DNA of 64,000 nucleotides from Liquidambar formosana (lineage: Eukaryota > Streptophyta > Magnoliopsida > Saxifragales > Altingiaceae), in the NCBI GenBank assembly GCA_039720395.1, contig CM077829.1, positions 20,868,685-20,932,684 of the forward strand. Direction: 5' to 3'. Each line of letters begins with the position of its first letter. Position 1 is the first letter of the stretch. A program made the position numbers and the translations under genes. Positions 4,834 through 58,090 of the stretch are shown piece by piece. The notes beneath the pieces were generated by a model. That model was given only the letters and a program-made list of their open reading frames with translations, searched no databases and was not told the origin of the DNA.

Positions 4834-4985
4834 CTACATAAACAAAGAATTAGATTTCATTTTTTATCCATAATGATTGGGTCTTTAATCATATGGTACC
4901 TCCCACTATTTTATCAAATTCCATACACCCTCTAATGGAATTCGGGAATCTCATTCCTAATGGGGATTGGGGTCCCACTGTGACC

Positions 4986-5205
4986 TAGAAGCCTCACATG
5001 TTAGTTTCTTGACTTCTAACCCACAATAAGAAGACAACTCTTTGTCTATTGCTTCATAAGCAAGTTCCAATCATTTTGCCTCTGGGGAACATACACCTCA
5101 CATGTTAGTTTCTTGGAATACTTCCCTAGTTAAGTTAAACCCATCATTCACACAGGTATGTTTCGCCAAATATATACCTCACATGTTAGTTTCTTGGTAT
5201 ATACC
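4986..5205 (-). other. Element A triple shared-loop hairpins
   Basis: Three copies of the sense-strand loop AAGAAACTAACATGTGA at 4994-5010, 5098-5114 and 5179-5195. Flanking stems are TAGAAGTC/GGCTTCTA (4986-4993 and 5011-5018), a weaker mismatched stem for the middle copy, and GGTATATACC/GGTATATA for the third. The loops are identical and the stems are unrelated to each other. Confidence 0.8.
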
Positions 5206-5656
5206 AGTTTAGGCACCCCATGATATCTCATATGTGATAGTTTCAAGTAATGTCTTTAACATGGGTAGCTCCTACATGTCTGCAGCTAGGTACCCACATT
5301 AAGGGACGTTAGATGATACTATAATGATGGAAGGCAATGAAGAATTCATTCCCCAATGACTTCTCCATTTTCAACTTAATATTAAATAAGAGGGGTTTTA
5401 AAGGGTCTCATCAAATTAACATGCATCCTATGTATCAAAATTTAAACATATAAATTATGCTATTTATAATCATACATCTCATGCTATTATAAATCATACA
5501 TCGGATGCTATTATATTTCAACATATATAAAGTACCATATTTTGATATTAGTCCCTAAGTGAATTGGAAACATATACCAAACTATGGTATTAGAGCTAAT
5601 ACAATTATCTCATAAATTAAAGCTCCCACTATGATGATTATGGACTTTGAGAGGAT

Positions 5657-5848
5657 TCAATCCAAGCCAATGGATTGAATCCAAGGTCTAAGGTGGGTGT
5701 AGGTGATCGTAAAATTAACCATTCGTAACATGCATGCTTTCTTGAAAAACTTCTCTAAGCTTTCAAGTCCTTCAATCTGCTCCCTTGACTTGATGGTCTC
5801 CACCATTGGCTTATTGGTCTCCACCATTGGCTTGTTGGGCTTCATCAT
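5657..5848 (-). CDS. Leader short frame, 63 codons (element A copy)
   Basis: A short sense-oriented frame inside the leader. It has a duplicated NKPMVET peptide, then IEGLESLEK and a C-terminus FTITYTHLRPWIQSIGLD. The same C-terminal peptide occurs in frame in B (15484-15654) and E (49897-50118); D's copy is cut by TGA. No known domain is recognised. It could be a remnant of an older gag extension, or chance conservation among related copies. Confidence 0.3.
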   Translation of the reverse strand: MMKPNKPMVETNKPMVETIKSREQIEGLESLEKFFKKACMLRMVNFTITYTHLRPWIQSIGLD

Positions 5849-6529
5849 ACTCCTTTGGGTCCACCATGCTCCTTAGTGCGCTCTCGATTACATAACATTT
5901 ACATAATATATAGAAAGGGATACATAAGGGGAATGTGGGGTACATAAGAGAATGATAGAGAGAGAGGGAAGGTGGCATGCAAGCCCCAAATAATAAATTA
6001 CATCACCATAATAAAATTACAACTCTTGAAAAATTATTATAACCCATTCATAAGATGGCCAATCACAATTGGTTTAAGGGGTATAGTCCATAATCATCAT
6101 CCAAACACATACATACAATCTCATTGCATAACGTAAAGAAAAACTGTAAGCATTAAAACATATGGGCATTATGGTAATTCTCTTGAATGATTTACATTAA
6201 TTTCATTAATGCATCCTAATCTTATTAGGTTTAAGCAAAAATATCCAGAATTAAATAAAGTCTTAACATTTAAGACATTTTAGTTTCAATTAATCAAATT
6301 AATTTAAACATATAAAGTTTCCTAAAATAACTCTAATATCCAATATTAGGGTTTCCTTATTTAAACAAAACAATTTCATTCAATTAAGAATTTCCAGATT
6401 TTAATTTAATCCCCAATTGTATTTTAAACCATTTGAAACATTATAAAATTAATCAATGTTAATTAAATAATTAACATGGGAATTAAATAAAATCAATTAA
6501 ATGATGAATTAGTGTATTAGGGTTTCCTA

Positions 6530-6810
6530 AAACCCTAAACCCTAAATGCATAACCCTAAACCCTAAATGCAAGCCCTAATCATTAAATGCCTTATGATTG
6601 GTCATTTAATGACCAATCATTAAAACCCTAGGTTCATACGGTATTTAATAAAAGGGATTAGGGTTTAATTAATGCCAAATAGGGTATTTATTACCCTTAA
6701 TTAATTACACTAGTTAGGGTTATCAAAAACCCTAACCCTAGACATCATTAATGGTATTAATTATGCCCTAACAATTAATAACCATGATTGGTCATTTAAT
6801 GACCAATCAT
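6530..6810 (-). repeat. Element A leader: telomere-like blocks and CCAAT palindromes (2 units)
   Basis: Blocks of AAACCCTAAACCCTAAA type alternate with palindromes whose arms are ATGATTGGTCA and TGACCAATCAT (6594-6620 and 6784-6810). B, D and E have three such units; A has two. Confidence 0.8.
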
Positions 6811-8304
6811 TAACTCTTAATTAAGGTAATTAATATTCCAATTAGGGTTTTAATTAATGCCATAATGAAATTAGAGTTTCATCATTAACTCAAAATTAGG
6901 GTTTCATCCTTAACTCTATGCAGCCGTCACTACCAGGGGGCTGCCTGAGCTTGGCTAGGCTGCCATGGCCACCAACGACTGTGGGAGGCCATGGCCAGTC
7001 ATGGGAGAACATCCTAGGGGTGTGGGACAAGCCTCTGGACACGTGAGAGGTGGTGGAAGTGGCTGCCATCATCAAGAACAATCAGAGTTTCCAAAACCCA
7101 TTGCTGGAGCCATTGTTGCAGACCTTGAAGGTCACAATAGCTTCTAAATCCTTATCAATTCGACTCCTCCATTGAAACCAGCTTTTGTATCATGTCCCTA
7201 CATGAAATACTAAGCTAATAGAAGAGGTTTGGATGATCGAATCATCACCAATTGTTCTAAACAATTAAAACAACAGTAGGCTGCCCAGAATTTGACAGCA
7301 TACTGTCCATGGTCAGAAATTGATTTAAAACCCAGCAAGATGATTAAGTCAGGCTACCAAACGAATTTTCCCAGTATCCTACATGTCTTAGGAAACTAAT
7401 GCAATTCGTTTCATGCAATTTGGAGTTCCCTAACTCAAGTTCTAATCAAAACTCCATTGATGACTTTTCTGCAGAGAAAATCTGCTATGCTGTTCATGAA
7501 AAATTTTCAAACTTTTTGAATCTTTTTCCATCAAAACCTTTTTGAAACTTAAAGAAAATCATATACACATGATATATAATGATCCTACAATGATCTTCCA
7601 TCATAAATACAGCAGCTTTAATTAGAATTAATTGCAAGAACCTTAGGGTTCTAAAACCCAGATTCAGCCTCCATGGTGTTCTTCTCCTTCTTCCTTCTGT
7701 TCTAGCATCTTAATCCAATTATGATGCATCTAAATGCTTGGGAACCTTTCCCTACCATGTCTAGAACATAACCCAAGTGGTGGCAACCATTGCCATGCCT
7801 TTGATCTCCATCAATAACTCAAAGTTGTGGCTATTGCATCATTCCCGAGCAAAACTGTCTTTCCAGACAGCCTGTAGTAAAAAATTCATAACTTTCACTA
7901 CAGAACTCGGATTGATGCACCGTTTGTTGGGTTGGAAAGCTGATTCGAAGAGCTAGAGCTTTCTAACCATATATGGCTCCAAAATGTTGGAGAAGAACTC
8001 TGAATTCGGCATGCAAAACAAGATGATGGTTTTTCATGGCTACCATGAAAACTGTTCATAACAGTTTTATAAAACCCTAGTTTCCTTATTCTTCTTCTCC
8101 AAACTCAAACCCTATGCAACCTATTGCATCCATGGCTACACTTAACCATCAATAAGAAGAGGAGTAGAAGAGAATTGACCTAAGGTTCCAAACCCTAGGT
8201 TCAGCCATGGAGGAAAACCAATTATGCAGAAAAATTTTCCAGATTTTTGAATCATTCAACTACACCATAATTACCAGCCCATATGTATTTTGTATTATAT
8301 ATAA

Positions 8305-8321
8305 TCATGGCTCTGATACCA
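8305..8321 (-). other. Element A primer binding site
   Basis: In sense direction TGGTATCAGAGCCATGA, one base after the 5' LTR; it matches the 3' end of plant initiator Met-tRNA, the usual Copia primer. It lies downstream of the LTR splice donor, so it would be lost from spliced RNA. Confidence 0.9.
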
Positions 8322-8322
8322 C

Positions 8323-8733
8323 TGTTGGGAATCGAACAAGAGGGAAAAATTGAAGTGCGGAATATAAAAATTTTTCCTACGATTCCACAGCCCATGAATC
8401 TAACTATGCGTAACACAAAATCAAACCCTAACTATGAAGAGGGTTAGAACACTTACAGAATTTTTGTCTTCTCCGTTTTGCTCCAAGCTTCGACTCTGGA
8501 CAGCAGTGAATGAGCAGCCCAAGTGTGCTGCCTCCAACGGTATCCACACCTAGCTAGAGCTTCAAGTCCTTTCCTCCTTTTCCTTGTTGTTGCTAGTGTA
8601 GGAGAAGAGAGGAGAGAGAGAGAGGGAGGCTGGAAATTTTGGCCAGCCCTTGGTGTCTTCTAAAAAGTGATGATGTCACACATCATAGTGTGACTTAAAT
8701 AGTCCACACTAAAGGGGCCGGCCCTAGGGGGGA
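8323..8733 (-). repeat. Element A 5' LTR, first part
   Basis: First 411 bp (plus-strand reading) of A's right LTR. It is interrupted after GGGGA by element B and continues at 19918. It holds the splice-donor motif at 8456/8457. Confidence 0.95.
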
Positions 8734-10407
8734 TGTTGGGAATCAAACTAGGGAGGAAAAATACAAAGGCGGAATTTAAAATTTTTCCTGTTATTCCCAA
8801 AACCATGAATCTTAATTATGCTTAATACAAAAACCATAAACCTAACTACCAAGAGAGTTAGGGTACTTACAGTTGAACAAGTCTTCTCCTTTATGCTCCA
8901 AGCTTTGTCTTCTGATTGAGCAGTCCAAGTGCACTGCCTCCAACAGTATCCACACCTAGCTTGAGCAAGTTGTCCTTTCCTTCTTCTTCCTTAGGGTTGC
9001 TAGAGGTGGAGAAGAGGGAGAGAGAGAGAGAGAGAGAGAAAGAGGTGAAATTTTCGGCCAGCACTTGGGAGCCTCCAAGAGTGCATCAAGTGATGATGTC
9101 ATCACATCATAAAAGGCTTTAAATAGCCTCCAACTAGGGCCGGCCAAGGGGGGTCTCCAAACCCTAATCTAATTTGTGTAATTACTCTTAATTACACAAT
9201 TAGCCCACTAGTTTGCATCAAATACAAATTAGCCCCTTAAAGAACTTTTCTTTAATCACTTATGCCCTTTCTCTCATAGACAATCAAGCTCTCTTAGCAT
9301 GATCAGTGTGTGACCCATTGGGTTCACATCATTAAGTAGTAGGGATAGCACGAAGTGTGCACAATGGAACACTTTCCATTAAGGGTCTAATTGAAACTCC
9401 TTTCAATTCCCTAATTGATTATAACTCATTTATATCAATTAGGGCTTCTACTAACCATGAGTAACACCTAGCATATGGCTCATGGTGTGGTCCTTAATGA
9501 GGTGAATAGTCATTTACAAAGAACCCTTTTGTTATAGTTTACAGGTTACAATTCCATCCTTCCATCAATACAATGTCTCCAATTGAACTAATAGGACATG
9601 GAAGTCTGTCAAGTCCCTAGTTCAATTACTTTATACTCATTCATTAATATCAACTCAATGATGAACTTATGGAAACTCCTTTCCATATTCATTCTACCAT
9701 GGGCCCATGGATTTAATGAGTTATATTCAATGAATGCTGTATGAGACATTCACTCTCTTTTTCCTGAGAGTGATGGATTCCTTGTTGATCACTCACATGC
9801 CTTCACACACATAGCAGTAGGGCCAATGAACACCCTTACAGACCCCTGAATAGGATCTGCACTTTGTGTTATCAAACTTCTAAAGCTACATGTATAAGAC
9901 AACCATGGTGTCTCAGGTCTAAGGATTACTTGTACCACTATAACAATGAGAAACTGATTGACAGGCAGGTTAAAACTCCATTCAGTTTATCTCATATCTT
10001 TGGTCACATTCAGTGTACCTATTCTTATAATAGGCACCCACTTGTTGGTTGTAGTGTCTCCACACAAATAGCTTGAGACTAGCTATCCTCCTATAGAGTC
10101 AACCTAACAAGTGCTAGTCCTATGGTTCATTACTGTCCATCATAGTGAACCTTCAACTAGGAATGATTTAGGAGTTTAGTACAGAGATATATTTACAGTC
10201 TCAAAATTACAACCCTTTGTAATTTCATATTCTCAACTCTAACTCCATGGACATATTATGTAAATATAAATGATGCATATAAACATAATAGAATAAGCCC
10301 TTTTATTAAATCAATAATAAATGTGACATATATAAATGAAATCAATTGATTGTTCCTAATCCCTAAACAATCATCTCTATGATTGGCTCTAGGGCATAAT
10401 CCTAACA
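8734..10407 (-). repeat. Element B 3' LTR
   Basis: Starts TGTTGGGAATCAAAC and ends TCCTAACA at the polypurine tract. A (GA)n tract near 9010-9040 is longer than in the partner LTR (near 18529). The TATA region TTAAAT (9119-9124) lies between AGGCT (9114-9118) and AGCCT (9125-9129). Confidence 0.95.
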
Positions 10408-11950
10408 ATCTCCCACTTGCACTATAGCCAATCCACCATGTATCTCATACCCATATCCTGTCGGTGGTGATCCAATACACTTGGTTCATAGCCTTAGTGA
10501 AGGGGTCTTCTTTATTCTCTATTGTATTAAACTTCTATATGTATATGTCATCTCTTCCAATGATCTCTCTAATCACTTGGAATCGCTGCTTAAAGTTTGG
10601 ACTTTTGATGAGACCGTGGATCCTTGTCTTGAGCACTAGCCTTATTGTTGTCACAAAAACAATAGTAAAGGCTTCTCAATGTTAGGAACCATTCCTAGTT
10701 CTGCAATGAACTTACTCATCCAAACATGCAGCAATGAGCTCAAATTTACAGCTCCACCATTTAAGGTGAGAACATACCTCGATGTTGATCTCCTATCATC
10801 ATCGTCAGATTGAAAATCTGAATCCGTTATACCAACCATTTCTAAGTTTCTTTCTCCATAGACAAAGCATGGGTCCTTAGTTCTTCCCAAGTACTTAAGG
10901 ATAGCTTTGACTTCTTCCCAGTATACCTTATCTGGGTCTACCTGATATCTGTTCATAACATTTACAGCAAAACTGATATCTGGTCATGTACATAGCATAG
11001 CATATGCTTTTAGACAACATGATTTCATGTCTGACAGGAATTAGACTTCTCTTGAAATCATGCATTTTGAACCCATTCAAAATCTTGTCTACGCACATCG
11101 ATTGGGAGAGACTTAGCATCCTTTAAGATCTATCTCTATAGACCTCTATTCCTAGAATATAGGATGCTTCTTCCAAATCTTTTATGGAGAAACTTTGTGA
11201 AAAACTAATTTTTCACTGTTGACAACGTCTCTACATTATTCCTAATAAGTAGAACGTCATTTACTTATAGGACCAAAATATGATCGCACTCCCACTAACC
11301 CTTTGTACAATCATGGTACAATAATGGGTTCTGTCTCAACAGGGACAGGGGTTGCATCAATGTCGGTTTGTGTCTCATTAGACAACTCTTTGAGTTCTAT
11401 TTTCCTGTTGTTGTTGCCTTCTTGAATAAACTCTTTTTCAAGAAAGATTGCAAACATATAAACAAAATACCTTTTGTTCATCAGGATAATAGACTTAGTA
11501 TCCTAAACTCTATTTAGGATAATCCACAAACTGTTGGACCTAAGGGTTCAATCCCATGTATTTTGATGATAACAAAGCAAGAATGTTTTGCTAAGTTGCT
11601 AATGAAGTTGTAAGTTTGAGATTAACAGGCTGTATCATCTATACCCTTCATAAGTAGCAACAATGAAAGTTTATGGAGTTCAAAGAAGGCACATTACATC
11701 GAATGAATCATGGAATTCAAGCTGAAGGCAATTCAAGCTCTTTTAAGTGAGATTGTAAGAACTTAGGATCTTATGTAAGGTTAATTTCAAAATCCTTGCT
11801 CACTTAGGACATATGGGCTTTTTACATATTAAATGGTTACAAACTAAACAAACTAAGTTTTTGTACCAAAATGGTACCATAAGCTTTTTGAGTTGTATCC
11901 CAAAGTGGTAGACTTGTTCCAAACATTTCTGCTTTTTATCACTGGGAAAC

Positions 11951-12238
11951 TCAGACGATCCCTCAGACGTTCGAAATGAAACTCAGACGTCCGAGTGGAC
12001 ACTCAGACGTTCGAAAGTTCCATCAGACGTCCAAGTCTATATCTCAGACGTCTAACTATTCCAGAGAACTTGGCATTGCTTCTCCTTGGACACTGACTTT
12101 TTCAGACGATCCCTCAGACGTCCGAAATGAGACTCAGACGACCTAACTATTGATTTCACTGATAAGTCATTTTTATTGAAAATTGCTACTGTGATTTTCA
12201 GACGTCCAAGTCACAACTCAGACGTCCGAAACCTTCAG
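11951..12238 (+). repeat. CAGACG motif array in solo LTR G
   Basis: Eleven copies of CAGACG within about 290 bp, most extended to CTCAGACGTCCGA or CTCAGACGTTCGA. A larger block starting CAGACGATCCCTCAGACG occurs twice (11953 and 12105 regions). The array ends about 110 bp upstream of the TATA box, where an LTR enhancer is expected. GACGTC is a palindrome of the bZIP-site type. Confidence 0.85.
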
Positions 12239-12349
12239 ATCTGACTTATAATGGCTAGTTTTCTAAGAGTTGTTTGAAGCATTTATTGCCCACCAAACCA
12301 CTTTTCCCGGCATTAATTGTTACAGAACAGTCATTTTGGACCCTTGGAC

Positions 12350-12357
12350 TATAAATA
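12350..12357 (+). promoter_or_regulatory. TATA box of solo LTR G
   Basis: TATAAATA in GGACTATAAATACATC, downstream of the CAGACG array, marking the sense direction of this LTR. Confidence 0.7.
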
Positions 12358-13831
12358 CATCACCTGTACTCATTTATGTGTATTGATTGAGAAAAATACA
12401 AACAAATCACATTCCATTACTCTCAAGCCCTAGAAAATCAAGTGAGCATTCATTGTGAAATTAATCAGTAGCTGAGTGAGCTGTGTACAACTGTATCATC
12501 TACTCTTTGAAGAGAGTTCTTGTATTCAAATATCTCTACAAATCATCTTGTATTAAAGGGTTGTGAAAATCCTTGGCTTTGAAGCCTTTGAAGAAGGCTG
12601 TGTATTAAGTGTTTGAGTAAAACACTTGCTGCTGTAAAGGTTTTATCTTCACCTTGGAAGAAGATTGTTTAGTGGATTTGAATCCTCAAGTGAGCTCTTG
12701 AGGCGAGGACGTAGGCGGGAAGCTGAACCTCGTTAAAATCGTTTGCATTCTCTTTCCTTACATCTTCTTATTATAGCATACTTGTGTTATTTCTTGCTCT
12801 AGCAATAATCAGATTTTTTATTGTGCATTTAAATTTTTATTTGGCTAAAAACCCTATTCACCCCCACTCTAGGGTTATTTACTTGGGACAACACAAACCT
12901 ACGTTCAAGTTATCTTGATTTCCAATTTGGTTACATCATGTGTCTCTACATATGCAGTGCAACCCCTATACCTTAACATGCTTAAGGTTTGGTGCTTCCC
13001 TTTCCATATCTCATATAGGTCCTAAAGGACAGCCTTGGTTTGAACTCTGTTTCACACGTACGTGGAAATTTCTAGGGCATATCCTAACAAGGATAATATT
13101 AGGTTGTTGTAACTTATCATGGATCGGACCATATCCAATAAGGTCCTCTTCCTCCTTTCTGACACACCATTTAGTTATGATGTTCTAAGGGGTGTCCATT
13201 AGAATAGAATGCCTATTTGAACAAGTTGATCTGAAAGATCACCAGTTAAATATTCGCCTCCTCGATCCAATCAAAGAGTTTGATACTTTTACTAGTTTAT
13301 TTCTCTACTTCATATCTGAATTCTTTGAACCTTTTCAAATGTTTCAGATTTGTACTTCTTTAAGTATATGAACCTATACCTAAACATTTTTATGTAAAGG
13401 TTCATAAAGTATGAGAAACTATTTCTCTTGTTCTCTTGGGTTTATTAGCATTCAATTTTTGGAGCTATCATGTTTCATGCAATTCATATTTTCAAGGTAG
13501 TTTAGAAGATAAATGCTATAAATTCCAGAAGTAATGAACTCTTCATAAAAACATTTATTAAATCAAACTAAAACACTGTTTAGGCAAAACTGAAATAAAG
13601 ATAATGTTTCTAAAAACTTCTGGAATGTCAAGATAGCTTATTAATTCTAAACTACTCCTTCAGGTAGAGTCAAGCAACAAGTCCCATAGCTAATATATAG
13701 CAACACTTTGCTCCATTCTCTACTCGTAGGGATATTCCGCTTCTACTCAGCCTTCTGCTTCCCACTAGATCCTACATGGAATTCAAAATTCACATCAGAA
13801 TTAAGTACCCAAGTGGAAGCAAAACTAACAT

Positions 13832-14704
13832 TTAGTTTAGAGCATGATCCATACCTTCCGAAGGTCGGCTCTTTAGAGTATCCAGATACTCCCGGCAGTT
13901 ACGTTTCCAGTGCCCATCCTTGCCGTAGTGAAAACAGGTTCCTTTGGCCTTGTTAGTATTACCTTTCTTGACACCTCCCTTTGGCTTCAAGTTCTTCTTC
14001 TTCTTCCCTTGGGTACTCTTACCCTTTCCTTTGCCCTTGCCCTTAGGCTTGGGCTTGGCCTTGGAAGTAGAAGCTCCATCAAATGCGAGCAAAGAACCTT
14101 TTCCCTTCTTCATTGTCTCCTCAGTCATCTTGAGCAAATTGTGCAGCTCGGGGAGAGTGGGCTCAAGCTTGTTCATATGAAAATTCATTATGAACGGCCC
14201 AAATGAATCAGGAAGGGACTGCAGTATAATGTCTGAACACATATCAGCTTCAATGATCACATCAAGCTTTTCAAGCTGCTCGATATGGTTGATCATTTTC
14301 AAGGTGTGATCAGTCACAGACGAACCCTCATTCATCCTTGCCTTGAATAGATCCTTGACAATATTATACTTCGCGGTCCTACTTTGCTCCCCATACAACT
14401 CTTGTAAGTGGAGAAAGATGTCGCGAGCACTCTTCATGGACTCATGTTGCTTCTGAAGCTCAGGGCTCATGGATGCCATCATATAGCATCTTGCCTTCAA
14501 ATCGTCGTCCATGCGCTTCTGAAAAGCGTCTCTCTCTTGCTGAGTTGCAGTCTCAGCCAGTGCCTCAGGAAGTGTGCCATCAAGTGTGTAGGTAATCTTT
14601 TCGGAAGTTAAAACTATTTTTAAATCCCTCAGCCAATCAAGATAGTTTGGTCCAGTCAAACGGTTGATGTCCAATATTTTGGATAGCGGGTTGAGGTGAG
14701 CCAT
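13832..14704 (-). CDS. gag: Copia Gag, element B (290 codons)
   Basis: Full-length frame starting MAHLNPLSKILDINRL. The N-terminal and middle parts match Copia-type Gag (UBN2 family): GPNYLDWLRDLK at about 19-30, LKARCYMMASM around 69-79, QELYGEQSRTAKYN near 102-115. A Lys/Gly-rich stretch (about 215-250) precedes a zinc knuckle at 257-270. The knuckle reads C257-F-H-Y260...H265...C270: the second Cys of CX2CX4HX4C is Tyr, while D and E keep Cys. The frame is closed before any protease. The start is supported by the splice-acceptor motif 10 nt upstream and by the matching starts in D and E. It would coat element RNA in virus-like particles; RNA binding is doubtful with the Tyr change. Confidence 0.88.
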   Translation of the reverse strand: MAHLNPLSKILDINRLTGPNYLDWLRDLKIVLTSEKITYTLDGTLPEALAETATQQERDAFQKRMDDDLKARCYMMASMSPELQKQHESMKSARDIFLHLQELYGEQSRTAKYNIVKDLFKARMNEGSSVTDHTLKMINHIEQLEKLDVIIEADMCSDIILQSLPDSFGPFIMNFHMNKLEPTLPELHNLLKMTEETMKKGKGSLLAFDGASTSKAKPKPKGKGKGKGKSTQGKKKKNLKPKGGVKKGNTNKAKGTCFHYGKDGHWKRNCREYLDTLKSRPSEGMDHALN

Positions 14705-14869
14705 TTCTATGAACTACATATAAAATTAGAGAATTAGATTTCATTTTTAATCCATAATGATCGGGTCTTTAATCATATGGTACCTCCCACTATTTTATCA
14801 AATTCCATACACCCTCTAATGAAATTCGGGAATCTTATTCCTAGTAGGGATTGGGGTCCCACTATGACC

Positions 14870-15089
14870 TAGAAGCCTCACATGTTAGTTTCTTGACTTC
14901 TAACCCACAGTAAGAAGACAACTCTTTGTCTATTGCTTCATAAGCAAGTTCCAATCATTTTGCCTCTAGGGTACATATTCCTCACATGTTAGTTTCTTGG
15001 AATACTTCCCTAGTTAAGTTAAGCCCATCATTCACACAGGTATGTTTCACCAAATATATACCTCACATGTTAGTTTCTTGGTATATACC
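14870..15089 (-). other. Element B triple shared-loop hairpins
   Basis: The loop AAGAAACTAACATGTGA is present at 14878-14894, 14982-14998 and 15063-15079. Stems in sense direction are TAGAAGTC/GGCTTCTA (8 pairs, one G-U), GTATTCC/GGAATAT extended by CTAGGG/CCCTAG (about 14 pairs with small interruptions), and GGTATATACC/GGTATATATT (about 10 pairs). The stems differ from each other in sequence while the loops are identical. Confidence 0.85.
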
Positions 15090-15483
15090 AGCTTAGGCAC
15101 CCCATGATATCTATATATGTGATAGTTTCAAGTAATGTCTTTAATATGGGTAGCTCCTACATGTCTGTAGCCAGGTACCCACATTAAGGGACGTTAGATG
15201 ATCCTATAATGATGGAAGGCAATGAAGAATCCATTCCCTAATGTATTCTCCATTTCCAACTTAATATTAAAAGAGAGGGGGTTTTAAGGGTCTCATCAAA
15301 TTAACTAATCTAACATACATCTCATGCATTTAAATAAGAAATATATAATAACATTATATATATGTAATCCACTTATCGATATTAGTCCCTATAAGGTGAC
15401 ATATAACGATCTTTGGATTTGGAGCTATCTCTATTAATCTCATTAAAAGCTCCCACTATGATGATTATGGACTTTAAGAGGAT

Positions 15484-15654
15484 TCAATCCAAGCCAATGA
15501 ATTGAATCCAAGGTCTAAGGTGGGTGTAGGTGATCGTAAAACATTCATTTGAAACATAGCATGCTCTCTTGAAAATCTTCTCCAAGCTTTCAAGTCCTTC
15601 AATCTCCTCCATTGGCTTCATGGTCTCCACCATAGGCTTATTGGGCTCCACCAT
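15484..15654 (-). CDS. Leader short frame, 56 codons (element B copy)
   Basis: ATG at 15654 gives MVEPNKPMVETMK, then EEIEGLESLEKIFK, ending THLRPWIQFIGLD. It is homologous in frame to the A and E copies. Imperfect GAGCATGGTGGA repeats lie over and just upstream of the start. No domain is recognised. It lies inside the candidate intron, so it could only be read from unspliced RNA. Confidence 0.3.
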   Translation of the reverse strand: MVEPNKPMVETMKPMEEIEGLESLEKIFKRACYVSNECFTITYTHLRPWIQFIGLD

Positions 15655-16311
15655 GCTCCTTTAGGTCCACCATGCTCCTTAGTGCGCTCTCGGTTACATA
15701 ACATTTACATAATTTAAAGAAAGGGATACATAAGAGGAATGTGGGGTACATAAGAGAATGATAGAGAGAGAGAAGAAGGTGGCATGCAAGCCCCAAATAA
15801 ATAATACATCACCAAAAATTGACAACTCTTGAAAAATTATACAACCCATTCATAAGACAACCAATCACAATTGGTTTAAGGGTATAGTCCATAATCATCA
15901 TCCATCCATAACCATACAATCACATTGCATAATAAAGGAAATAACTGTAAGCAATAAACATATGGGCATTCATGGTAACTCTATTGATTGGTTTTCATTA
16001 ATCTCATTAATGTGTCCTAATCTTATTAGGATATGCATAAGTTCTTGAATTAATTAAGTCTTAACATTTAAGACATTTAATTTCAATTAATCAAATCAAT
16101 TGAAACATTTAAAGGCCCCTAATAAAACTCTAATATCAAATATTAGGATCTCTTTAATTAAACAAAACAATTTCATTTAATTAAAAAATTCCAGATTTTA
16201 ATTTAATCCTAAATTGTGTTTTAAACCATTTAAAACATTATAAAATTAATCACCATTAATTAAATAATCAATTTTGGAATTAAATAAAATCATTTTATTA
16301 ATTAATTAGTG

Positions 16312-16787
16312 CATTAGGGTTTCCTAAAACCCTAAACCCTAAATGCATTAACTCTAAACCCTAAGTGTAACCCTAATGCATTAAATGCCTTATGATTGGT
16401 CAATTAATGACCAATCATTTAAACCCTAGGTTTATACGGTATTAATGATTAGGATTAGGGTTTAATTAATGCCACCTAGGATATTAATTACACCTAATTA
16501 ATATGCACTAATTAGGGTTTCTAAAACCCTAAACCTTAAACCTATTAAATGCCAATGATTAATTACTAAACCATTAATGATCATGATTGGTCATTAATAA
16601 CCAATCATTTAACCCTAGGTTAGACACATTAATTACTAGGTTTAGTTATTAATTAATGCATTAATAGAATTAGGGTTTAATTAATATGAATTAGGGTTTC
16701 CTAAACCCTAAACCCTAGACATCATAAATGCCATTAATAATACCCTAATGATTAATAACCATGATTGGTCAATTAATGACCAATCAT
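16312..16787 (-). repeat. Element B leader: three telomere-like/CCAAT-palindrome units
   Basis: Three units of about 180-190 bp. Each has a block where TTAGGGTTT faces AAACCCTAA (16312, 16503 and 16680 regions), then a palindrome with arms ATGATTGGTCA/TGACCAATCAT (16392-16418, 16583-16608 with one change per arm, 16761-16787). The stretch is very AT-rich. Confidence 0.85.
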
Positions 16788-17731
16788 TAAACACTTTAAT
16801 TAAGGTAATTAATAGCCAAATTAGGGTTTTTAATTAATGCAATTAATGAATTAGGGTTTCATCATTAAAGGGAATTAGGGTTTCCTAAGAAACCCTAAGG
16901 CTGCCGCCACCTATAGTGGGCTGCCATGGCTTGGCCAGGCCATGGGAGGCCATGGCCAGCAAAGGGGGACTCAAGCCAGGGTGTGGGCCAAACCCATGGA
17001 CACGTGTGGAGTGGCCAAGAGGGCTGTCTTCTTCAAAGAACATTAGGGTTTCCTGAACCCAGTGCTGGCACCACCATTGAAGGACCTCCAAGGTCACAAA
17101 CATTTCTAAAACTTAATCAATTCGACTCCACCAACAAAACCAGCTTTTGTATCATGTCCCTACATGAATTACTAAGCTAATTGAAGTGGTTTGGATGATC
17201 AAATCATCCCCAATTGTTCTAAACAATTCAAGAACAGTAGGCTGTCCAGAATTTGACAGCATACTGTCCATGATCACAAATTGATTTAAAACCCAGCAAG
17301 ATGATTAATTCAGGCTACCAAATTATTTTTCCTAGTATCCTACATGTCTTAGGAAACTAATAAAATTGGTTTCATGCAATTTGGAGTTCCCTAGCTCAAG
17401 ATATGAACAAAACTCCATTGATGACTTTCTGCAGAAAAACAGCCTGCTGTGTTCTTCCAAGAAATCAAACTTTTTGATTCTTTATGCATCAAGACTCCTT
17501 TGATTATTAAAGAATATGATCTATACATCATATATCATCATCCTATAATGATTATTCATCAATTTTACAGAAGTATCTGATCATAACAGTAGCAAGAACC
17601 CTAGGGTTCTAAAACCCAGATTCAAACATGGTGGTCTTCTCCTTCTTCCTTCTGTTCTAGACTCATAATCCAATTATGATACATCCGAATGCTTGGGAAC
17701 CCTTTCCTACCATGTCTAGAACATAACCCAA

Positions 17732-18061
17732 GTGGTGGCAACCATTGCCATGCCTTTGATCTCCATCAAAAACTCACAATTGTGGCTGTTACATCATTCC
17801 CGAGCAAAACTGTCTTCCCTGACAGCCTGTAGTAAAAAATTCATAACTTTCACTACAAAACTCGGATTGACGAACCGTTTGTTGGGTTGTAAAGCTGATT
17901 TGAAGAGCTTTCTAACCATATATGGCTCGAAAATTTTGGAGAAGAACTCTGATTTTGGCATGCAAAACAAGATGACGATTTTTCATGACTATCATAAAAA
18001 CTGTTCATCATCTTCTCCAAACTCAATCCCCATTCAACTTTTGAATAACCAGCAGCCCTAA
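17732..18061 (+). CDS. Antisense leader frame, 109 codons (element B copy)
   Basis: A frame on the strand opposite to the element, starting MVATIAMPLISIKNSQLW and containing CSKKFITFTTKLGLTNRLLG. The homologous frame is 108 codons in E (52146-52472). In D it is cut by E's insertion, and in A it holds an in-frame TAG in a small duplication. No family is recognised. Conserved length may only reflect recent common origin. Confidence 0.25.
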   Translation: MVATIAMPLISIKNSQLWLLHHSRAKLSSLTACSKKFITFTTKLGLTNRLLGCKADLKSFLTIYGSKILEKNSDFGMQNKMTIFHDYHKNCSSSSPNSIPIQLLNNQQP

Positions 18062-18226
18062 AACTATTTTAGAAGAGGAGTAGAAGGAGAATTAACCTAG
18101 GGTTCATTAACCCTAGGTTCGGCCATGAGAGGGAAACCATTCTAATGCATGAACATAAATTCCAGATTTATTAACCAATCAATTTACCATGAATTACAGC
18201 CCATATGCAGTTTGTATTAGGCATAA

Positions 18227-18243
18227 CCATGGCTCTGATACCA
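18227..18243 (-). other. Element B primer binding site
   Basis: TGGTATCAGAGCCATGG in sense direction, one base from the 5' LTR end; matches initiator Met-tRNA. Confidence 0.92.
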
Positions 18244-18244
18244 C

Positions 18245-19912
18245 TGTTGGGAATCAAACTAGGGAGGAAAAATACAAAGGCGGAATTTAAAATTTTTCCT
18301 GTGATTCCCAAAACCATGAATCTTAATTATGCTTAATACAAAAACCATAAACCTAACTACCAAGAGAGTTAGGGTACTTACAGTTGAACAAGTCTTCTCC
18401 TTTATGCTCCAAGCTTTGTCTTCTGATTGAGCAGTCCAAGTGCACTGCCTCCAACAGTATCCACACCTAGCTTGAGCAAGTTGTCCTTTCCTTCTTCTTC
18501 CTTAGGGTTGCTAGAGGCGGAGAAGAGGGAGAGAGAGAGAGAGGTGAAATTTTCGGCCAGCACTTGGGAGCCTCCAAGAGTGCATCAAGTGATGATGTCA
18601 TCACATCATAAAAGGCTTTAAATAGCCTCCAACTAGGGCCGGCCAAGGGGGGTCTCCAAACCCTAATCTAATTTGTGTAATTACTCTTAATTACACAATT
18701 AGCCCACTAGTTTGCATCAAATACAAATTAGCCCCTTAAAGAACTTTTCTTTAATCACTTATGCCCTTTCTCTCATAGACAATCAAGCTCTCTTAGCATG
18801 ATCAGTGTGTGACCTATTGCGTTCACATCATTAAGTAGTAGGGATAGCACGAAGTGTGCACAATGGAACACTTTCCATTAAGGGTCTAATTGAAACTCCT
18901 TTCAATTCCCTAATTGATTATAACTCATTTATATCAATTAGGGCTTCTACTAACCATGAGTAACACCTAGCATATGGCTCATGGTGTGGTCCTTAATGAG
19001 GTGAATAGTCATTTACAAAGAACCCTTCTGTTATAGTTTACAGGTTACAATTCCATCCTTCCATTAACACAATGTCTCCAATTGAACTAATAGGACATGG
19101 AAGTCTGTCAAGTCCCTAGTTCAATTACTTTATACTCATTCATTAATATCAACTCAATGATGAACTTATGGAAACTCCTTTCCATATTCATTCTACCATG
19201 AGGCCATGGATTTAATGAGTTATATTCAATGAATGCTGTATGAGACATTCACTTTCTTTTTCCTGAGAGTGATGGATTCCTTGTTGATCACTCACATGCC
19301 TTCACACACATAGCAGTAGGGCCAATGAACACCCTTACAGACCCCTGAATAGGATCTGCACTTAGTGTTATCAAACTTCTAAAGCTACATGTATAAGACA
19401 ACCATGGTGTCTCAGGTCTAAGGATTACTTGTACCACTATAACAATGAGAAACTGATTGACAGGCAGGTTAAAACTCCATTCAGTTTATCTCATATCTTT
19501 GGTCACATTCAGTGTACCTATTCTTATAATAGGCACCCACTTGTTGGTTGTAGTGTCTCCACACAAATAGCTTGAGACTAGCTATCCTCCTATAGAGTCA
19601 ACCTAACAAGTGCTAGTCCTATGGTTCATTACTGTCCATCATAGTGAACCTTCAACTAGGAATGATTTAGGAGTTTAGGACAGAGATATATTTACAGTCT
19701 CAAAATTACAACCCTTTGTAATTTCATATTCTCAACTCTAACTCCATGGACATATTATGTAAATATAAATGATGCATATAAACATAATAGAATAAGCCCT
19801 TTTATTAAATCAATAATAAATGTGACATATATAAATGAAATCAATTGATTGTTCCTGTTCCTAATCCCTAAACAATCATCTCTATGATTGGCTCTAGGGC
19901 ATAATCCTAACA
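18245..19912 (-). repeat. Element B 5' LTR
   Basis: LTR of 1668 bp, partner of 8734-10407. The TATA region TTAAAT (18618-18623) sits between AGGCT and AGCCT. The splice-donor motif is at 18381/18382. The GA tract (about 18529-18544) is shorter than in the partner LTR. Confidence 0.95.
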
Positions 19913-19917
19913 GGGGA

Positions 19918-21159
19918 AACCCTTTTAGGGTTTTATGCAATTTCCCTAAATTGCACAATAACCCCTATTGTTTATATCAAATACAAACATGGCCTCAAAG
20001 AACTATTCTTTATGCACTCATACCCTTTCTCTCATAGACTTAAAAGCTCATCTTGCATGATCAGTGTGTGACCCATTGGATTCACATCATCAAGTAGTAG
20101 GAATAGCACGAGGTGTGCACAATGGAACTCTTTCCATTTAGGGTCTAATTGGAACTCCTTCCAATTCCCTAATTGATTATAACTCACTTATATCAATTAG
20201 GGCTTCTACTAACCATGAGTAACACCTAGCATATGGCTCATGGTGTGGTTCTTAATGAGGTGAATAGTCATTTACAAAGAACCCTTTTGTTATAGTTTAT
20301 AGGTTACAATTGCATCCTTCCTTCAACACAATGTCTCCAATTGAACTAATAGGACATGGAAGTCTGTCAAGTCCCTAGTTCAATTACTTTATACTCATTC
20401 ATAGATATCAACTCATTGATGAACTCATGAAACTCTTTTCATTTTCATCCTACCATGGCCATGGATTTAATGAGTTATATTATGAATGCTATATGAGACA
20501 TTCTCTCTCTTTTTCCTAAGAGTGATGGATCCCTTGTTGATCACTCACATGCCTTCATACACATAGCAGTAGGGCCAATGAACACCTTTGCAGACCCTTG
20601 AATAGGATCTGCACTTAGTGTTATCAAACTTCTAAAGCTACATGCATAAGGCAACTATGGTGTCTCAGGTCTAAGGATTACTTGTACCACTATAACAATG
20701 AGAAACTAATTGACAGGCAGGATAAAACTCCATTCAGTTTATCTCATATCTTTGGTCACATTCAGTGTACCTATTCTCGTAATAGGCACACACTTGTTGG
20801 TTGTAGTGTCTCCACACAAATAGCTTGAGACTAGCTATCCTCCTATAGAGTCAACCTAACAAGTGCTAGTCCTATGGTTCATTACTGTCCATCATAGTGA
20901 ACCTTCAACTAGGAATGCTTTAGGAATTTAGTACAGAGATATATCTATAGTCTCAAAATTACAACTCTTTGTAATTCCATATTCTCAACTCTAACTCCAT
21001 GGACATATTATGTAAATATAAATGATGCATATAAACATAATAGAATAAGCCTTTTTATTAAATCAATAATAAATGTGACATACATAAATGAAATCAAATG
21101 ATTGTTCCTAATCCCTAAATAATCATCTCTATAATTGGCTCTAGGGCATAATCCTAACA
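19918..21159 (-). repeat. Element A 5' LTR, second part
   Basis: Remaining 1242 bp of A's right LTR after element B. With 8323-8733 it makes 1653 bp, matching A's left LTR of 1654 bp. It ends ATCCTAACA followed by the TSD GAACT. Confidence 0.95.
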
Positions 21160-48564: not shown

Positions 48565-49113
48565 TTAGTTTAGAGCATGATCCATACCTTCCAAAGGTTG
48601 GTTCTTTAGAGTATCCAGATACTCCTGGCAGTTACGTTTCCAGTGCCCATCTTTGCCGCAGTGAAAACAGGTTCCTTTGGCTTTGTTGTTACCTTTCTTC
48701 TTCCTTCGGGTAATCTTGCCCTTGCCTATGCCCTTGCCCTTGGGCTTGAGCTTAGACTTGGAAGTAGCAGCTTCATTAAATTCAAGCAAGAATTCTTTCC
48801 CATACAATTCTTGTATGTTGATAAAAATCTCGTAAGCACTTCCCATGGACTCATGTTGCTTCTTAAGCTCGAGACTCATAAATACCATCATATAGCACAT
48901 TGCCATGAGATCGTCGTCCATGCGCTTCTGGTAAGCGTCTTTCTCTTGCTGAGTTGTAGCCTCAGCAGGAGCAATGGGAAGTGGATTATGAAGTGCATAG
49001 GTAAGATTCTTGGAATCCAAAACAATTTTTAGATTCCTAAGCCAATCAAGACAATTTGGTCCAGTCAAACGGTTGATGTCCAATATTTTGGATAACGGGT
49101 TGAGGTGAGCCAT
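48565..49113 (-). CDS. gag: Short Copia Gag, element E (182 codons)
   Basis: The same N-terminus as B's Gag (MAHLNPLSKILDINRL) to QELYGKE, then a direct jump to FLLEFNEAATSKSK. About 100 residues of the middle Gag region present in B are missing in frame. The basic Lys/Gly stretch and the intact zinc knuckle remain: C149-F-H-C152...H157...C162. D has the same shortened form. The start is fixed by homology and by the acceptor-like TATATGTAG 10 nt upstream. Probably unable to assemble alone, but still RNA-binding. Confidence 0.85.
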   Translation of the reverse strand: MAHLNPLSKILDINRLTGPNCLDWLRNLKIVLDSKNLTYALHNPLPIAPAEATTQQEKDAYQKRMDDDLMAMCYMMVFMSLELKKQHESMGSAYEIFINIQELYGKEFLLEFNEAATSKSKLKPKGKGIGKGKITRRKKKGNNKAKGTCFHCGKDGHWKRNCQEYLDTLKNQPLEGMDHALN

Positions 49114-49283
49114 TTCTATGAACTACATATAAAAATTAAATAGAGAATTAGATTTCATTTTTAATCCATAATGATCGGGTCTTTAATCATATGGTACCTC
49201 CCACTATTTTATCAAATTCCATACACCCTCTAATGGAATTCAGGAATCTTATTCCTAATGGGGATTGGGGTCCCACTATGACC

Positions 49284-49503
49284 TAGAAGCCTCACATGTT
49301 AGTTTCTTGACTTCTAACCCACAGTAAGAAGACAACTCTTTGTCTATTGCTTCATAAGCAAGTTTCAATCATTTTGCCTCTAGGGTACATACTCCTCACA
49401 TGTTAGTTTCTTGGAATACTTCCCTAGTAAAGTTAAACCCATCATTCACACAGGTATGTTTCACCAAATATATACCTCACATGTTAGTTTCTTGGTATAT
49501 ACC
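49284..49503 (-). other. Element E triple shared-loop hairpins
   Basis: The loop AAGAAACTAACATGTGA is at 49292-49308, 49396-49412 and 49477-49493. Stems match those of B; in the middle stem one A-U pair of B has become a G-U pair (GGAGTAT in place of GGAATAT). Confidence 0.85.
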
Positions 49504-49896
49504 AGCTTAGGCACCCCATGATATCTACATATGTGATAGTTTCAAGTAATGTCTTTAATATGGGTAGCTCCTACATGTCTGCAGCCAGGTACCCACATTA
49601 AGGGACGTTAGATGATCCTATAATGATGGAAGGCAATGAAGAATCCATTCCCTAATGTATTCTCCATTTCCAACTTAATATTAAAATAGAGGGGTTTTAA
49701 GGGTCTCATCAAAATAACTAATCTAACATACATCTTAGGCATTTAAATAAGAAATATATAACAACATTATATATATGTAATCCACTTATCGATATTAGTC
49801 CCTATAAGGTGACATATAACGATCTTTGGATTTGGAGCTATCTCTATTAATCTCATTAAAAGCTCCCACTATGATGATTATGGACTTTAAGAGGAT

Positions 49897-54361: not shown

Positions 54362-57300
54362 GTTAGAAAGATCTTCGAATCAGCTTTACAACCCAATAAA
54401 CGGTTCGTCAATCCGAGTTTTGTAGTGAATGTTATGAATTTTTTACTACAGGCTGTCAGGGAAGACAGTTTTGCTCGGGAATGATATAACAGCCACAATT
54501 GTGAGTTTTTGATGGAGATCAAAAGCATGGCAATGGTTGCCACCACTTGGGTTATGTTCTAGACATGGTAGGAAAGGGTTCCCAAGCATTCGGATGCATC
54601 ATAATTAGATTATGAGTCTAGAATAGAAGGAAGAAGGAGAAGACCACCATGTTTGAATCTGGGTTTTAGAACCCTAGGGTTCTTGCTACTGTTATGATCA
54701 GATACTTCTGTAAAATTGATGAATAATCATTATAGGATGATGATATATGATGTATAGATCATATTCTTTAATAATCAAAGGAGTCTTGATGCATAAAGAA
54801 TCAAAAAGTTTAATTTCTTGGAAGAACACGGCAGGCTGTTTTTCTGCAGAAAGTCATCAATGGAGTTTTGTTCATATCTTGAGCTAGGGAACTTCAATTA
54901 GGATGCTAGGAAAAATAATTTGGTAACCTAAATTAATCATCTTGCTGGGTTTTAAATCAATTTGTGATCAGGTACAGTGTGCTGTCAAATTCTGGACAGC
55001 CTACTATTCTTGAATTGTTTAGAACAATTGGGGATGATTTGATCATCCAAACCACTTCAATTAGCTTAGTAATTCATGTAGGGACATGATACAAAAGCTG
55101 GTTTTGTTGGTGGAGTCGAATTGATTAAGTTTTAGAAACTTTTGTGACCTTGGAGGTCCTCCAATGGTGGTGCCAGCATTGGGTTCAGGAAACCCTAATG
55201 TTCTTTGAAGAAGACAGCCCTCTTGGCCACTCCACACGTGTCCATGGGCTTGACCCACACCCTGGCTTGAGTCCCCTTTTGTTGGCCATGGCCTCCCATG
55301 GCCTGGCCAAGCCATGGCAGCCCACTATAGGTGGCGGCAGCCTTGGGTTTTATTAGGAAACCCTAATTCCCATTAATGATTTAACCCTAATTCATTAATT
55401 GCATTAATTGAAACCCTAATTAAGCTATTAATTACCATAATTAAAGTGTTTAATGATTGGTCATTAATTGACCAATCATGGTTATTAATCATTAGGGTAT
55501 TATTAATTGCATTTATGATGTCTAGGGTTTAGGGTTTAGGAAACCCTAATTCATATTAATTAAACCCTAATTCTGTTAATGCATTAATTAATAACTAAAC
55601 CTAGTAATTAATGTGTCTAACCTAGGGTTAAATGATTGGTCATTAATGACCAATCATGATCATTAATGGTTTAGTAATTAATCATTGGCATTTAATAGGT
55701 TTAAGGTTTAGGGTTTTAGAAACCCTAATTAGTGCATATTAATTAGGTGTAATTAATATCCTAGGTGGCATTAATTAAACCCTAATCCTAATCATTAATA
55801 CCGTATAAACCTAGGGTTTAAATGATTGGTCATTAATTGACCAATCATAAGGCATTTAATGCATTAGGGTTACACTTAGGGTTTAGAGTTAATGCATTTA
55901 GGGTTTAGGGTTTTAGGAAACCCTAATGCACTAATTAATTAATAAAATGATTTTATTTAATTCCAAAATTGATTATTTAATTAATGGTGATTAATTTTAT
56001 ATTGTTTTAAATTGTTTTAAAACACAATTTAGGATTGAATAAAAATCTGGAAATTTTAATTAAATAAAATTGTTTTGTTTGATTAAAAAGAAACCCTAAT
56101 ATTTGATATTAGTGTTCAATTAGGGGACTTTAAATGTTTCAATTGATTTGATTAATTGAAACTAAATGTCTTAATTGTTAAGACTTAATTAATTCTAGAG
56201 ATTATGCATATCCTAATAAGATTAGGACACATTAATGAGATTAATGAAAACCAATCAATAGAGTTACCATAAATGCCCATATGTTTATTGCTTACAGTTA
56301 TTTCCTTTATTATGCAATGTGATTGTATGGTTATGGTTGGCTGATGATTATGGACTATACCCCTTAAACCAATTGTGATTGGCCGTCTTATGAATGGGTT
56401 GTATAATTCTTCCAGAGTTGTCAATTTTTGGTGATGTATTATTTATTTGGGGCTTGCATGCCACCTTCTTCTCTCTCTCTATCATTCTCTTATGTACCCC
56501 ACATTCCCCTTATGTATCCCTTTCTTTAAATTATGTAAATGTTATGTAATCGAGAGCGCACTAAGGAGCATGGTGGACCTAAAGGAGCATGGTGGAGCCC
56601 AATAAGCCTATGGTGGAGACCATGAAGCTAATTGAGGAGATTGAAGGACTTGAAAGCTTGGAGAAGATTTTCAAGAGTACATGATATGTTTCGAATGAAT
56701 GTTTTACGATCACCTACACCCACCTTAGACCTTAGATTCAATTCATTGGCTTGGATTGAATCTTCTTAAAGTCCATAATCATCATAGTGGGAGCTTTTAA
56801 TGAGATTAATAGAGATAGCTCCAAATCCAAAGATCGTTATATGTCACCTTATTGGGACTAATATCGATGATTGGATTATATATATTGTTGTTATATATAT
56901 ATTTATTTAGATGCATGAGATGTATGTTAGATTAGTTAATTTGATGAGACCCTTAAAACCCCTCTCTTTTAATATTAAGTTGGAAATGGAGAATACATTA
57001 GGGAATGGATTCTTCATTGCCTTCCATCATTATAGGATCATCTAACGTCCCTTAATGTGGGTACCTGGCTGCAGACATGTAGGAGCTACCCATATTAAAG
57101 ACATTACTTGAAACTATCACATATATAGATATCATGGGGTGCCTAAACTGGTATATACCAAGAAACTATAATGTGAGGTATATATTTGGCAAAACATACC
57201 TGTGTGAATGATGGGCTTAACTTAACTAGGGAAGTATTCCAAGAAACTATAATGTGAGGAGTATGTACCCTAGAGGCAAAATGATTGGAACTTGCTTATG

Positions 57301-57541
57301 AAGCAATAGACAAGGAGTTGTCTTCTTATTGTGGGTTAGAAGTCAAGAAACTATAATGTGAGGCTTCTAGGTCATAGTGGGACCCCAATCCCCATTAGGA
57401 ATAATATTCCCAAATTCCATTAGAGGGTGTATGGAATTTGATAAAATAGTGGGAGGTACCATATGATTAAAGACCCGATCATTATGGATTAAAAATGAAA
57501 TCTAATTCTCTATTTTAATTTTTATATGTAGTTCATTAGAA
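54362..57541 (+). other. Element D leader, main part
   Basis: Continues D's leader after E. It holds a remnant of the antisense frame (to 54546), a GC-rich stretch (about 55140-55345) with overlapping frames on both strands, three palindromes (55453-55479, 55632-55657, 55822-55848) among telomere-like blocks, a short frame cut by TGA near 56682, and three hairpins (57150-57369). No conventional gene. Confidence 0.75.
57150..57369 (+). other. Element D triple hairpins with altered loop
   Basis: All three loops read AAGAAACTATAATGTGA (57160-57176, 57241-57257, 57345-57361). They differ from the A, B and E loop (CTAACATG to CTATAATG) at the same positions. The stems stay paired: GGTATATACC/GGTATATA, GTATTCC/GGAGTAT, TAGAAGTC/GGCTTCTA. 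Confidence 0.88.
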
Positions 57542-58090
57542 ATGGCTCACCTCAACCCACTATCCAAAATATTGGACACCAACCGTTTGACTGGACCAAA
57601 TTGTCTTGATTGGCTTAGGAATCTAAAAATTGTTTTGGATTCCAAGAATCTTACCTATGCACTTCATAATCCACTTCCTGTTGCTCCTGCTGAGGCTACA
57701 ACTCAGCAAGAGAAAGACGCTTACCAGAAGCGCATGGACGACGATCTCATGGCAAGGTGCAATATGATGGTATTTATGAGTCTCGAGCTTAAGAAGCAAC
57801 ATGAGTCCATGGGAAGTGCTTACGAGATTTTTGTCGACATACAAGAGTTGTATGGGAAAAAATTCTTGCTTGAATTTAATGAAGCTGCTACTTCCAAGTC
57901 TAAGCTCAAGCCCAAGGGCAAGGGCATAGGCAAGGGTAAGAGTACCCAAAGGAAGAAGAAAGGTAACAACAAAGCCAAAGGAACCTGTTTTCACTGCGGC
58001 AAGGATGGGCACTGGAAACGTAACTGCCAGGAGTATCTGGATACTCTAAAGAACCGACCTTTGGAAGGTATGGATCATGCTCTAAACTAA
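57542..58090 (+). CDS. gag: Short Copia Gag, element D (182 codons)
   Basis: Almost the same as E's Gag: N-terminus MAHLNPLSKILDTNRL, in-frame loss of about 100 middle residues between QELYGKK and FLLEFNEAA, a basic linker, and the intact knuckle C149-F-H-C152...H157...C162. The start lies 10 nt after the acceptor TATATGTAG. The following sequence has a protease trace (TWVLNSD, where DSG is expected), then stops. Confidence 0.85.
   Translation: MAHLNPLSKILDTNRLTGPNCLDWLRNLKIVLDSKNLTYALHNPLPVAPAEATTQQEKDAYQKRMDDDLMARCNMMVFMSLELKKQHESMGSAYEIFVDIQELYGKKFLLEFNEAATSKSKLKPKGKGIGKGKSTQRKKKGNNKAKGTCFHCGKDGHWKRNCQEYLDTLKNRPLEGMDHALN

Follow-up and report, generated by a model that had tools for sequence, protein, structure and literature searches.

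The leaders of a Copia retrotransposon family in Liquidambar formosana carry, upstream of gag, an RNA domain of ~500 nt with a loop that is usually alike in three predicted hairpins, and we read this domain, with moderate confidence, as a packaging signal for genomic RNA selected by Gag. The structure of the domain is conserved by compensatory change, and alignments show its loops to be conserved in sequence. What is new here is that the central dinucleotide of the loop is usually matched across all three hairpins of an element (64/74). More broadly, we favor a signal acting in cis for replication—most likely through Gag-driven packaging—over a role in controlling the translation of gag.

Nested Copia elements and their leader domain

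The window—the whole 64,000-nucleotide stretch of DNA analyzed—contains nested Copia elements (A, B, D, and E) with LTRs of ~1.7 kb, each with a 5-bp target site duplication (TSD) read from its flanks, a primer binding site (PBS) of the initiator-Met type, and a polypurine tract (PPT). Element B lies on the minus strand, with a 5' LTR at 18245..19912 that is 98.2% identical to the 3' LTR at 8734..10407, a TSD (GGGGA) at 8729-8733 and 19913-19917, a PBS (TGGTATCAGAGC, 18232..18243) whose motif we take to be of the initiator-Met type, and a PPT core at 10410..10418, before the 3' LTR. Its gag (13832..14704, minus strand; 290 aa; Retrotran_gag_2, PF14223, E 5.9e-26) is the only frame of at least 150 aa between the LTRs, and no pol frame is present. 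Both the LTR pair with its TSD and the Copia-type gag place B among Ty1/copia elements; the order of integrase before reverse transcriptase is seen not in B but in a relative that shares its leader (L119 then L122). Element A is likewise a real insertion, with TSD (GAACT), PBS, and PPT all present. The sequence designated C, by contrast, lacks the hairpin domain, PBS, and TSD alike and is therefore no evidence that a copy lacking the domain can be mobile.

In B, the conserved structured domain (14724..15305, minus strand) sits directly upstream of gag and ~3 kb from the PBS; it was recognized by alignment with A, D, E, and a more distant sequence, L001, and the fold computed from B alone is conserved in L001 and in divergent lineages of the same genome. 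The same domain occurs in A (4839..5420, minus strand; loops at 4994-5010, 5098-5114, and 5179-5195), where the downstream gag is decayed, in D (49137..49718, minus strand; loops at 49292-49308, 49396-49412, and 49477-49493), and in E (56935..57515, plus strand; loops at 57160-57176, 57241-57257, and 57345-57361). The loop itself, the 17-mer AAGAAACTAACATGTGA, was found by sequence search on the minus strand of B at 14878-14894, 14982-14998, and 15063-15079, in agreement with the positions and arms given by an initial annotation made from the sequence alone. The stems also proved to be as claimed there, with 9, 7, and 10 uninterrupted pairs (G-U included) in HP3, HP2, and HP1, respectively, all on the minus strand: HP1 (15053..15089, around the third loop) has the 10-pair arms GGTATATACC/GGTATATATT, HP2 (14966..15013, around the second) has the arms GTATTCC/GGAATAT plus CTAGGG/CCCTAG, and HP3 (14857..14915, around the first) has the inner 9-pair stem TTAGAAGTC/GGCTTCTAG with an outer extension. 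A 17-nt loop can be closed by at least 7 pairs at 11 of 3481 positions in the B leader, HP1-HP3 among them. Across the window, the 17-mer has 12 matches with up to two mismatches (0.01 expected)—three exact copies in each of the A, B, and D leaders, and three in E with two changes each, AC having become TA in all three loops. The further claim that the set is kept in A, D, and E thus stands for the presence of all three loops but not for their exact form, as the loops of E are of the TA type and the HP2 stem of A is altered, retaining only 2 uninterrupted pairs and folding in a shifted form.

The three hairpins differ in predicted stability. In whole-leader ensembles, the innermost pair of HP2 and HP3 has a probability of 0.77-1.0 in A, B, D, and E; for HP1, the corresponding value in the whole-leader fold is 0.22-0.31 in A, B, and D and ~0 in E. 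By these models HP1 is a weak hairpin: in A, B, and D only a minority of the ensemble adopts it, and in E it hardly forms, its loop pairing elsewhere in the whole-leader fold. Separately, the TA change in E extends the possible pairing of the HP1 loop with an upstream stretch, CACATATATAG (in the domain at 56935-57515); the local HP1 costs 5.5 kcal/mol there, and a two-state switch may be possible. An Rfam search of window positions 4500-20000 returned five matches, none of which reached its gathering score.

Two side observations concern the elements as a whole. A and B are ~95% identical in the hairpin domain (4839-5420 in A) versus mostly 75-93% upstream of it (5421-8322), where two alignment windows reach 94-95%; the higher identity in the domain may reflect either selection or a recombinant leader. 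The PPT core AGTGGGAG also recurs inside elements, with 21 occurrences in the window, tracts included (1.7 expected), among them 14784-14792, 15450-15458, and 11289-11297, one of which falls inside the conserved domain. L001 has 4 copies (0.07 expected), at 2510-2517, 1879-1886, and 4240-4247 among others, and such internal copies may be extra plus-strand priming sites.

Stems change in compensated pairs while loops are conserved

L001 is a contig filed under the bacterium Geminicoccus harenae. Its Copia gag is 51% identical at the amino acid level to that of B, its leader can be aligned across the whole domain, and its LTR-start sequence resembles the window's; we infer that it represents plant contamination. 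Plant-like Copia gag also turned up in assemblies filed as Modestobacter marinus and Enterobacter cloacae (homologues P0004 and P0121), probably contamination as in L001.

The minimum-energy structure of B was computed without L001 and then scored on the aligned L001 sequence, where 132 of 183 positions paired in B still pair and 51 are broken, versus 36-48% pairing with slid partners. Pairs changed on both sides were still able to pair in 33 of 39 cases (18.5 expected; none of 200000 simulations as high), and those changed on one side in 22 of 67. In a second, larger alignment, L001 retains 133 of 182 pairs, and pairing survives in 26 of 38 that changed on both sides (18.1 expected); a pair counter applied to B and L001 found 34 double-changed pairs versus 7.6 after shuffling (0/500 shuffles). 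A fourth hairpin, upstream of HP1 (window 15122-15207; L001 2081-2152), has 10 double-changed pairs between B and L001, the most of any helix. The plant's own genome also contains domain lineages whose stems differ, and six divergent sequences—three of them related TC copies—keep 915 of 1086 pairs (84%), versus 40-44% with slid partners. Double changes were kept well above expectation in TT sequences (e.g., 19/24 versus 11.4 expected), while in TC sequences they are few and kept little above it (e.g., 5/9 versus 4.4 expected). In each hairpin, cognate arms fold ~3 kcal/mol better than arms swapped between lineages, a comparison covering only 3, 5, and 3 divergent arm pairs.

In all 11 leaders tested, the predicted fold of the sense strand is 20-52 kcal/mol more stable than that of the antisense strand (five leaders at 20-41 kcal/mol and eight at 23-52, two being common to both sets), a bias more in keeping with an RNA in the sense of gag than with DNA palindromes. 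Energy alone was rejected as proof of structure, as upstream stretches of the leader also score low (z -0.8 to -7.8). The compensatory changes, the sense-strand bias, and the conservation of the loops together support the original proposal of an RNA structure, not a duplicated DNA block. Covariation, which had been named as the check to make, likewise bore this out overall, yet single hairpins remain weak—HP1 in the window and HP2 in one TT lineage of the plant's own genome, in which the short local HP2 fold is weak or different (L129, L143-L145, L147, and L148). In L001, the arms of HP1 have a pairing probability of ~0.75, but a model trained on the remaining 14 hairpins recovers this HP1 only at E 3.9.

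Loops no more conserved than nearby sequence would have spoken against such a structure, and three comparisons agree that they are more so. Between B and L001, 43 of 51 loop positions are identical, versus 27/70 in 12-nt arms and 188/296 in the rest of the domain; in the second alignment the counts are 43/51, 31/59 (10-nt arms), and 198/324, so that identity comes to 84% in loops and 39-53% in arms. The third comparison used copies selected blind to the loop, by a 16-mer between HP2 and HP3; in this sample—20 of 2313 places, all AC and on one contig—diversity was 0.0059 in loops, 0.036 in arms, and 0.030 elsewhere, i.e., five to six times lower in loops, and all 20 copies had the same dinucleotide in their three loops.

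Loop types are matched within elements across the genome

Within the genome of the species (718 Mb), we counted 7890 copies of the exact loop and 796 of the TA loop, with the domain 16-mer at 2313 places; the family has at least two thousand copies. The central dinucleotide of the loop falls into four types, AC, TA, TC, and TT, the latter two also occurring in sets. Of 74 distinct elements whose three loops are all nearly intact, 64 carry one type throughout (26 TA, 21 AC, 10 TT, and 7 TC) and 10 are mixed, versus 6.9 uniform elements expected after shuffling; because this set was gathered by loop patterns and shares descent, the figure describes the sample and does not count independent events. 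The 100 TA loops listed of the 796 group into 20 triples, 17 pairs, and 6 singles, and loops absent from this listing were usually TA loops with a further mutation. Four of the 40 TA elements fetched (from 43 among the matches listed) contain one AC loop (L062, L068, L079, and L082). Because mixed elements exist, strict loop identity is unnecessary for insertion, and in L001 the three loops are not identical to one another.

When 34 AC copies were compared with 40 TA copies over 527 columns (L079 being left out as neither type), near-fixed differences (≥0.93) were confined to two bases in each loop, the next value being 0.77; the copies had been picked by exact loops, so loop diversity within a type was not used. 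Two candidate roles for the loop were rejected. A long-range partner was sought with 8-mers spanning the variable dinucleotide in A, B, C, D, and E, and the 10-nt complement found just after the gag stop of B fails to track the change in E. The loop also contains CTAAC, a branch-point consensus, which is lost in all three loops of E and lies far from the 3' splice-site-like end. A search of viral contigs found no related locus.

The domain is kept across differing coding states

The domain accompanies gag with pol (L166, with a full-length gag containing stops and broken pol frames), a capsid-deleted gag with pol in open frames (L119 and L122), gag only (B), and sequence with no gag match. The gag of A is decayed, with stops, yet its three loops are perfect, and the same holds for nine of the 10 AC copies sampled on one contig (C1). 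The tenth, L119, has an open frame comprising capsid-deleted gag, zinc knuckle, Pol beta-barrel domain, and integrase (gag_pre-integrs, rve), followed by RVT_2 in L122. Five of 10 TA copies match both parts of the capsid-deleted gag (each with at least one stop), one matches its start only, one has a decayed gag, and three match nothing. Nine divergent TT/TC copies, out of 20 fetched, were examined downstream: two have a full-length gag with stops, four a decayed gag, and three no gag match. Such retention across coding states would not be explained by control of an element's own gag, whereas replication by proteins supplied in trans would account for it.

Among window elements, the gag of D (48565..49113, minus strand) lacks ~93 capsid residues relative to B, and that of E (57542..58090, plus strand) has the same deletion; both keep the zinc knuckle. 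The knuckle of B is CFHYGKDGHWKRNC, with tyrosine at the second cysteine, and was not called by Pfam; this substitution is common to the homologues P0001 and P0006. A pol-bearing member missing ~93 capsid residues (L119 and L122, as in the gag of D and E) thus stands opposite B, with its full gag and no pol, and the two types could possibly form a divided, complementing pair sharing one leader. TR-GAG elements are gag-only LTR retrotransposons, and B resembles them in having LTRs, PBS, PPT, and a gag frame with no pol frame; unlike TR-GAG, its family also includes pol-bearing, gag-plus-pol, and coding-free members with the same leader.

A candidate packaging signal and its alternatives

Elements without a working gag keep the domain, which would accordingly serve in cis for Gag supplied in trans. 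As a candidate mechanism, Gag from certain members would recognize the exposed loops and thereby single out RNAs carrying them, including those of gag-less members. Three like loops could engage several Gag molecules per RNA with higher avidity, and the stems would merely hold the loops apart, which would leave the arm sequence free to change. The central dinucleotides of the subfamilies would then reflect changed or re-matched recognition. Were the domain to lie in a leader intron, splicing would remove it from gag mRNA and packaging would be limited to unspliced RNA; both B and L001 have, ahead of gag, an end resembling a 3' splice site, and the candidate donors were judged by matrix score only.

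Two properties expected of a packaging signal (psi) are found here: structured RNA upstream of gag with conserved loops, only weakly so for HP1 and with loop exposure predicted, and retention by elements that would rely on Gag in trans (A, nine of 10 AC copies, and three of nine divergent copies without a gag match). As a counterpoint, the distance between psi and PBS is shorter in retroviruses than the ~3 kb seen for this domain. In HIV-1, too, psi consists of several hairpins, lying between the splice donor and gag, whose exposed loops are bound by the nucleocapsid part of Gag (PMC7599994, in part). Unlike in HIV-1, one 17-nt loop is here set on three unrelated stems, changes together, and stands ~3 kb from the PBS, and the binding of Gag is a proposal. 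BARE1 and BARE2 are, like the present family, Copia elements with a long leader. BARE has spliced and unspliced RNA pools. In barley the gag-less BARE2 is packaged by another element's Gag, and its dimerisation and packaging signals are said to be conserved, so that Copia RNAs retaining a packaging signal in the absence of gag have a precedent (PMC3735527, in part). The consulted part of that account describes no matched-loop hairpin set (PMC3735527). The BARE intron lies inside gag, in contrast to the candidate intron in the leader here. Among Copia elements, Sireviruses also have repeated motifs of dyad symmetry in non-coding regions; there, however, the palindromic arms are conserved and the middle varies, near env or the 3' LTR TATA box, the opposite of a conserved loop on varying arms (PMC2829016, in part). 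In the literature searched—mostly open-access and judged largely by title and the opening of the abstract—we found no matched-loop packaging signal in plant LTR elements.

Several observations count against packaging, namely the weak HP1, the HP2 of one TT lineage, the non-uniform loops of L001, the mixed elements, and the altered knuckle of B; in addition, Gag of the related yeast Ty1 binds RNAs with low specificity in vitro (PMC8396678, in part). Only tentatively would we go further and suggest that the loops are an identity tag matching one Gag, so that the thrice-repeated dinucleotide would set both packaging specificity and the choice of helper by a parasite, and gag-only and capsid-deleted pol-bearing elements sharing a tag would form a divided, mutually dependent replication system; this extension we regard as rather doubtful.

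The main rival to packaging, which shares most of its evidence and which we consider unlikely, is an RNA export element, a role akin to the host-factor recognition that the initial annotation had listed: the matched loops would be recognized by a host factor that exports unspliced, intron-containing genomic RNA, as for retroviral constitutive transport elements (CTEs). Identical loops are part of the architecture of the MPMV-type CTE, where two internal loops lie in one stem near the 3' end, unlike the three hairpin loops upstream of gag here. Both arrangements present like loops on paired stems to one partner (for CTE function, PMC8579622, in part), and simian and mouse elements export through the structured CTE, RTE, and MTE (PMC8579622, PMC12786077, and PMC11379458, each in part). 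If the domain lies in an intron, the unspliced RNA would need an export route, and export, too, predicts that the domain be kept without gag. The intron is only a candidate, however, and the coexistence of AC and TA types (thousands versus hundreds of loops) is more simply explained by changing, element-encoded partners than by a single host factor.

The co-ordinated change of the loops could come from a changed partner or from homogenisation, and the data do not decide between these origins. Homogenisation by copying, through template switching or gene conversion among loops, would make loop identity uninformative on selection, with the hairpins still structural; as an account of the whole pattern we judge it improbable. 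Confinement of near-fixed AC/TA differences to six loop bases is also expected from conversion, but homology between loops extends over ~21 nt and the tracts must stay inside the loops three times. Ordinary changes, moreover, have not spread—among 58 loops altered at position 11 alone, none is accompanied by another of this kind within 250 nt—and the loops are conserved across lineages too.

Translational control of gag by AUG-UGA start-stop codons in the hairpin loops is, in our view, very improbable. All four loop types end in ATGTGA, and a plant AUG-stop element stalls ribosomes (PMC11915504, in part), but the B leader contains 132 ATGs and 11 start-stop pairs, HP1 of L001 has no start-stop, and nine of the 10 sampled AC copies combine three perfect loops with a dead gag. 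Least credible is a dimerisation (kissing-loop) signal, another of the early candidates, for although the AC loop holds the palindrome ACATGT, the TA, TC, and TT loops contain no six-base palindrome, and a self-complementary loop is thus not conserved.

Conclusions

How plant LTR retrotransposons select RNA is little known, though non-autonomous elements that borrow Gag fill plant genomes. The domain described here is a precisely defined candidate for such a signal, one that varies naturally within a family of thousands of copies, so that its recognition is directly testable, and its three loops, changing in concert on unrelated stems, are a clean natural case of matched RNA evolution.
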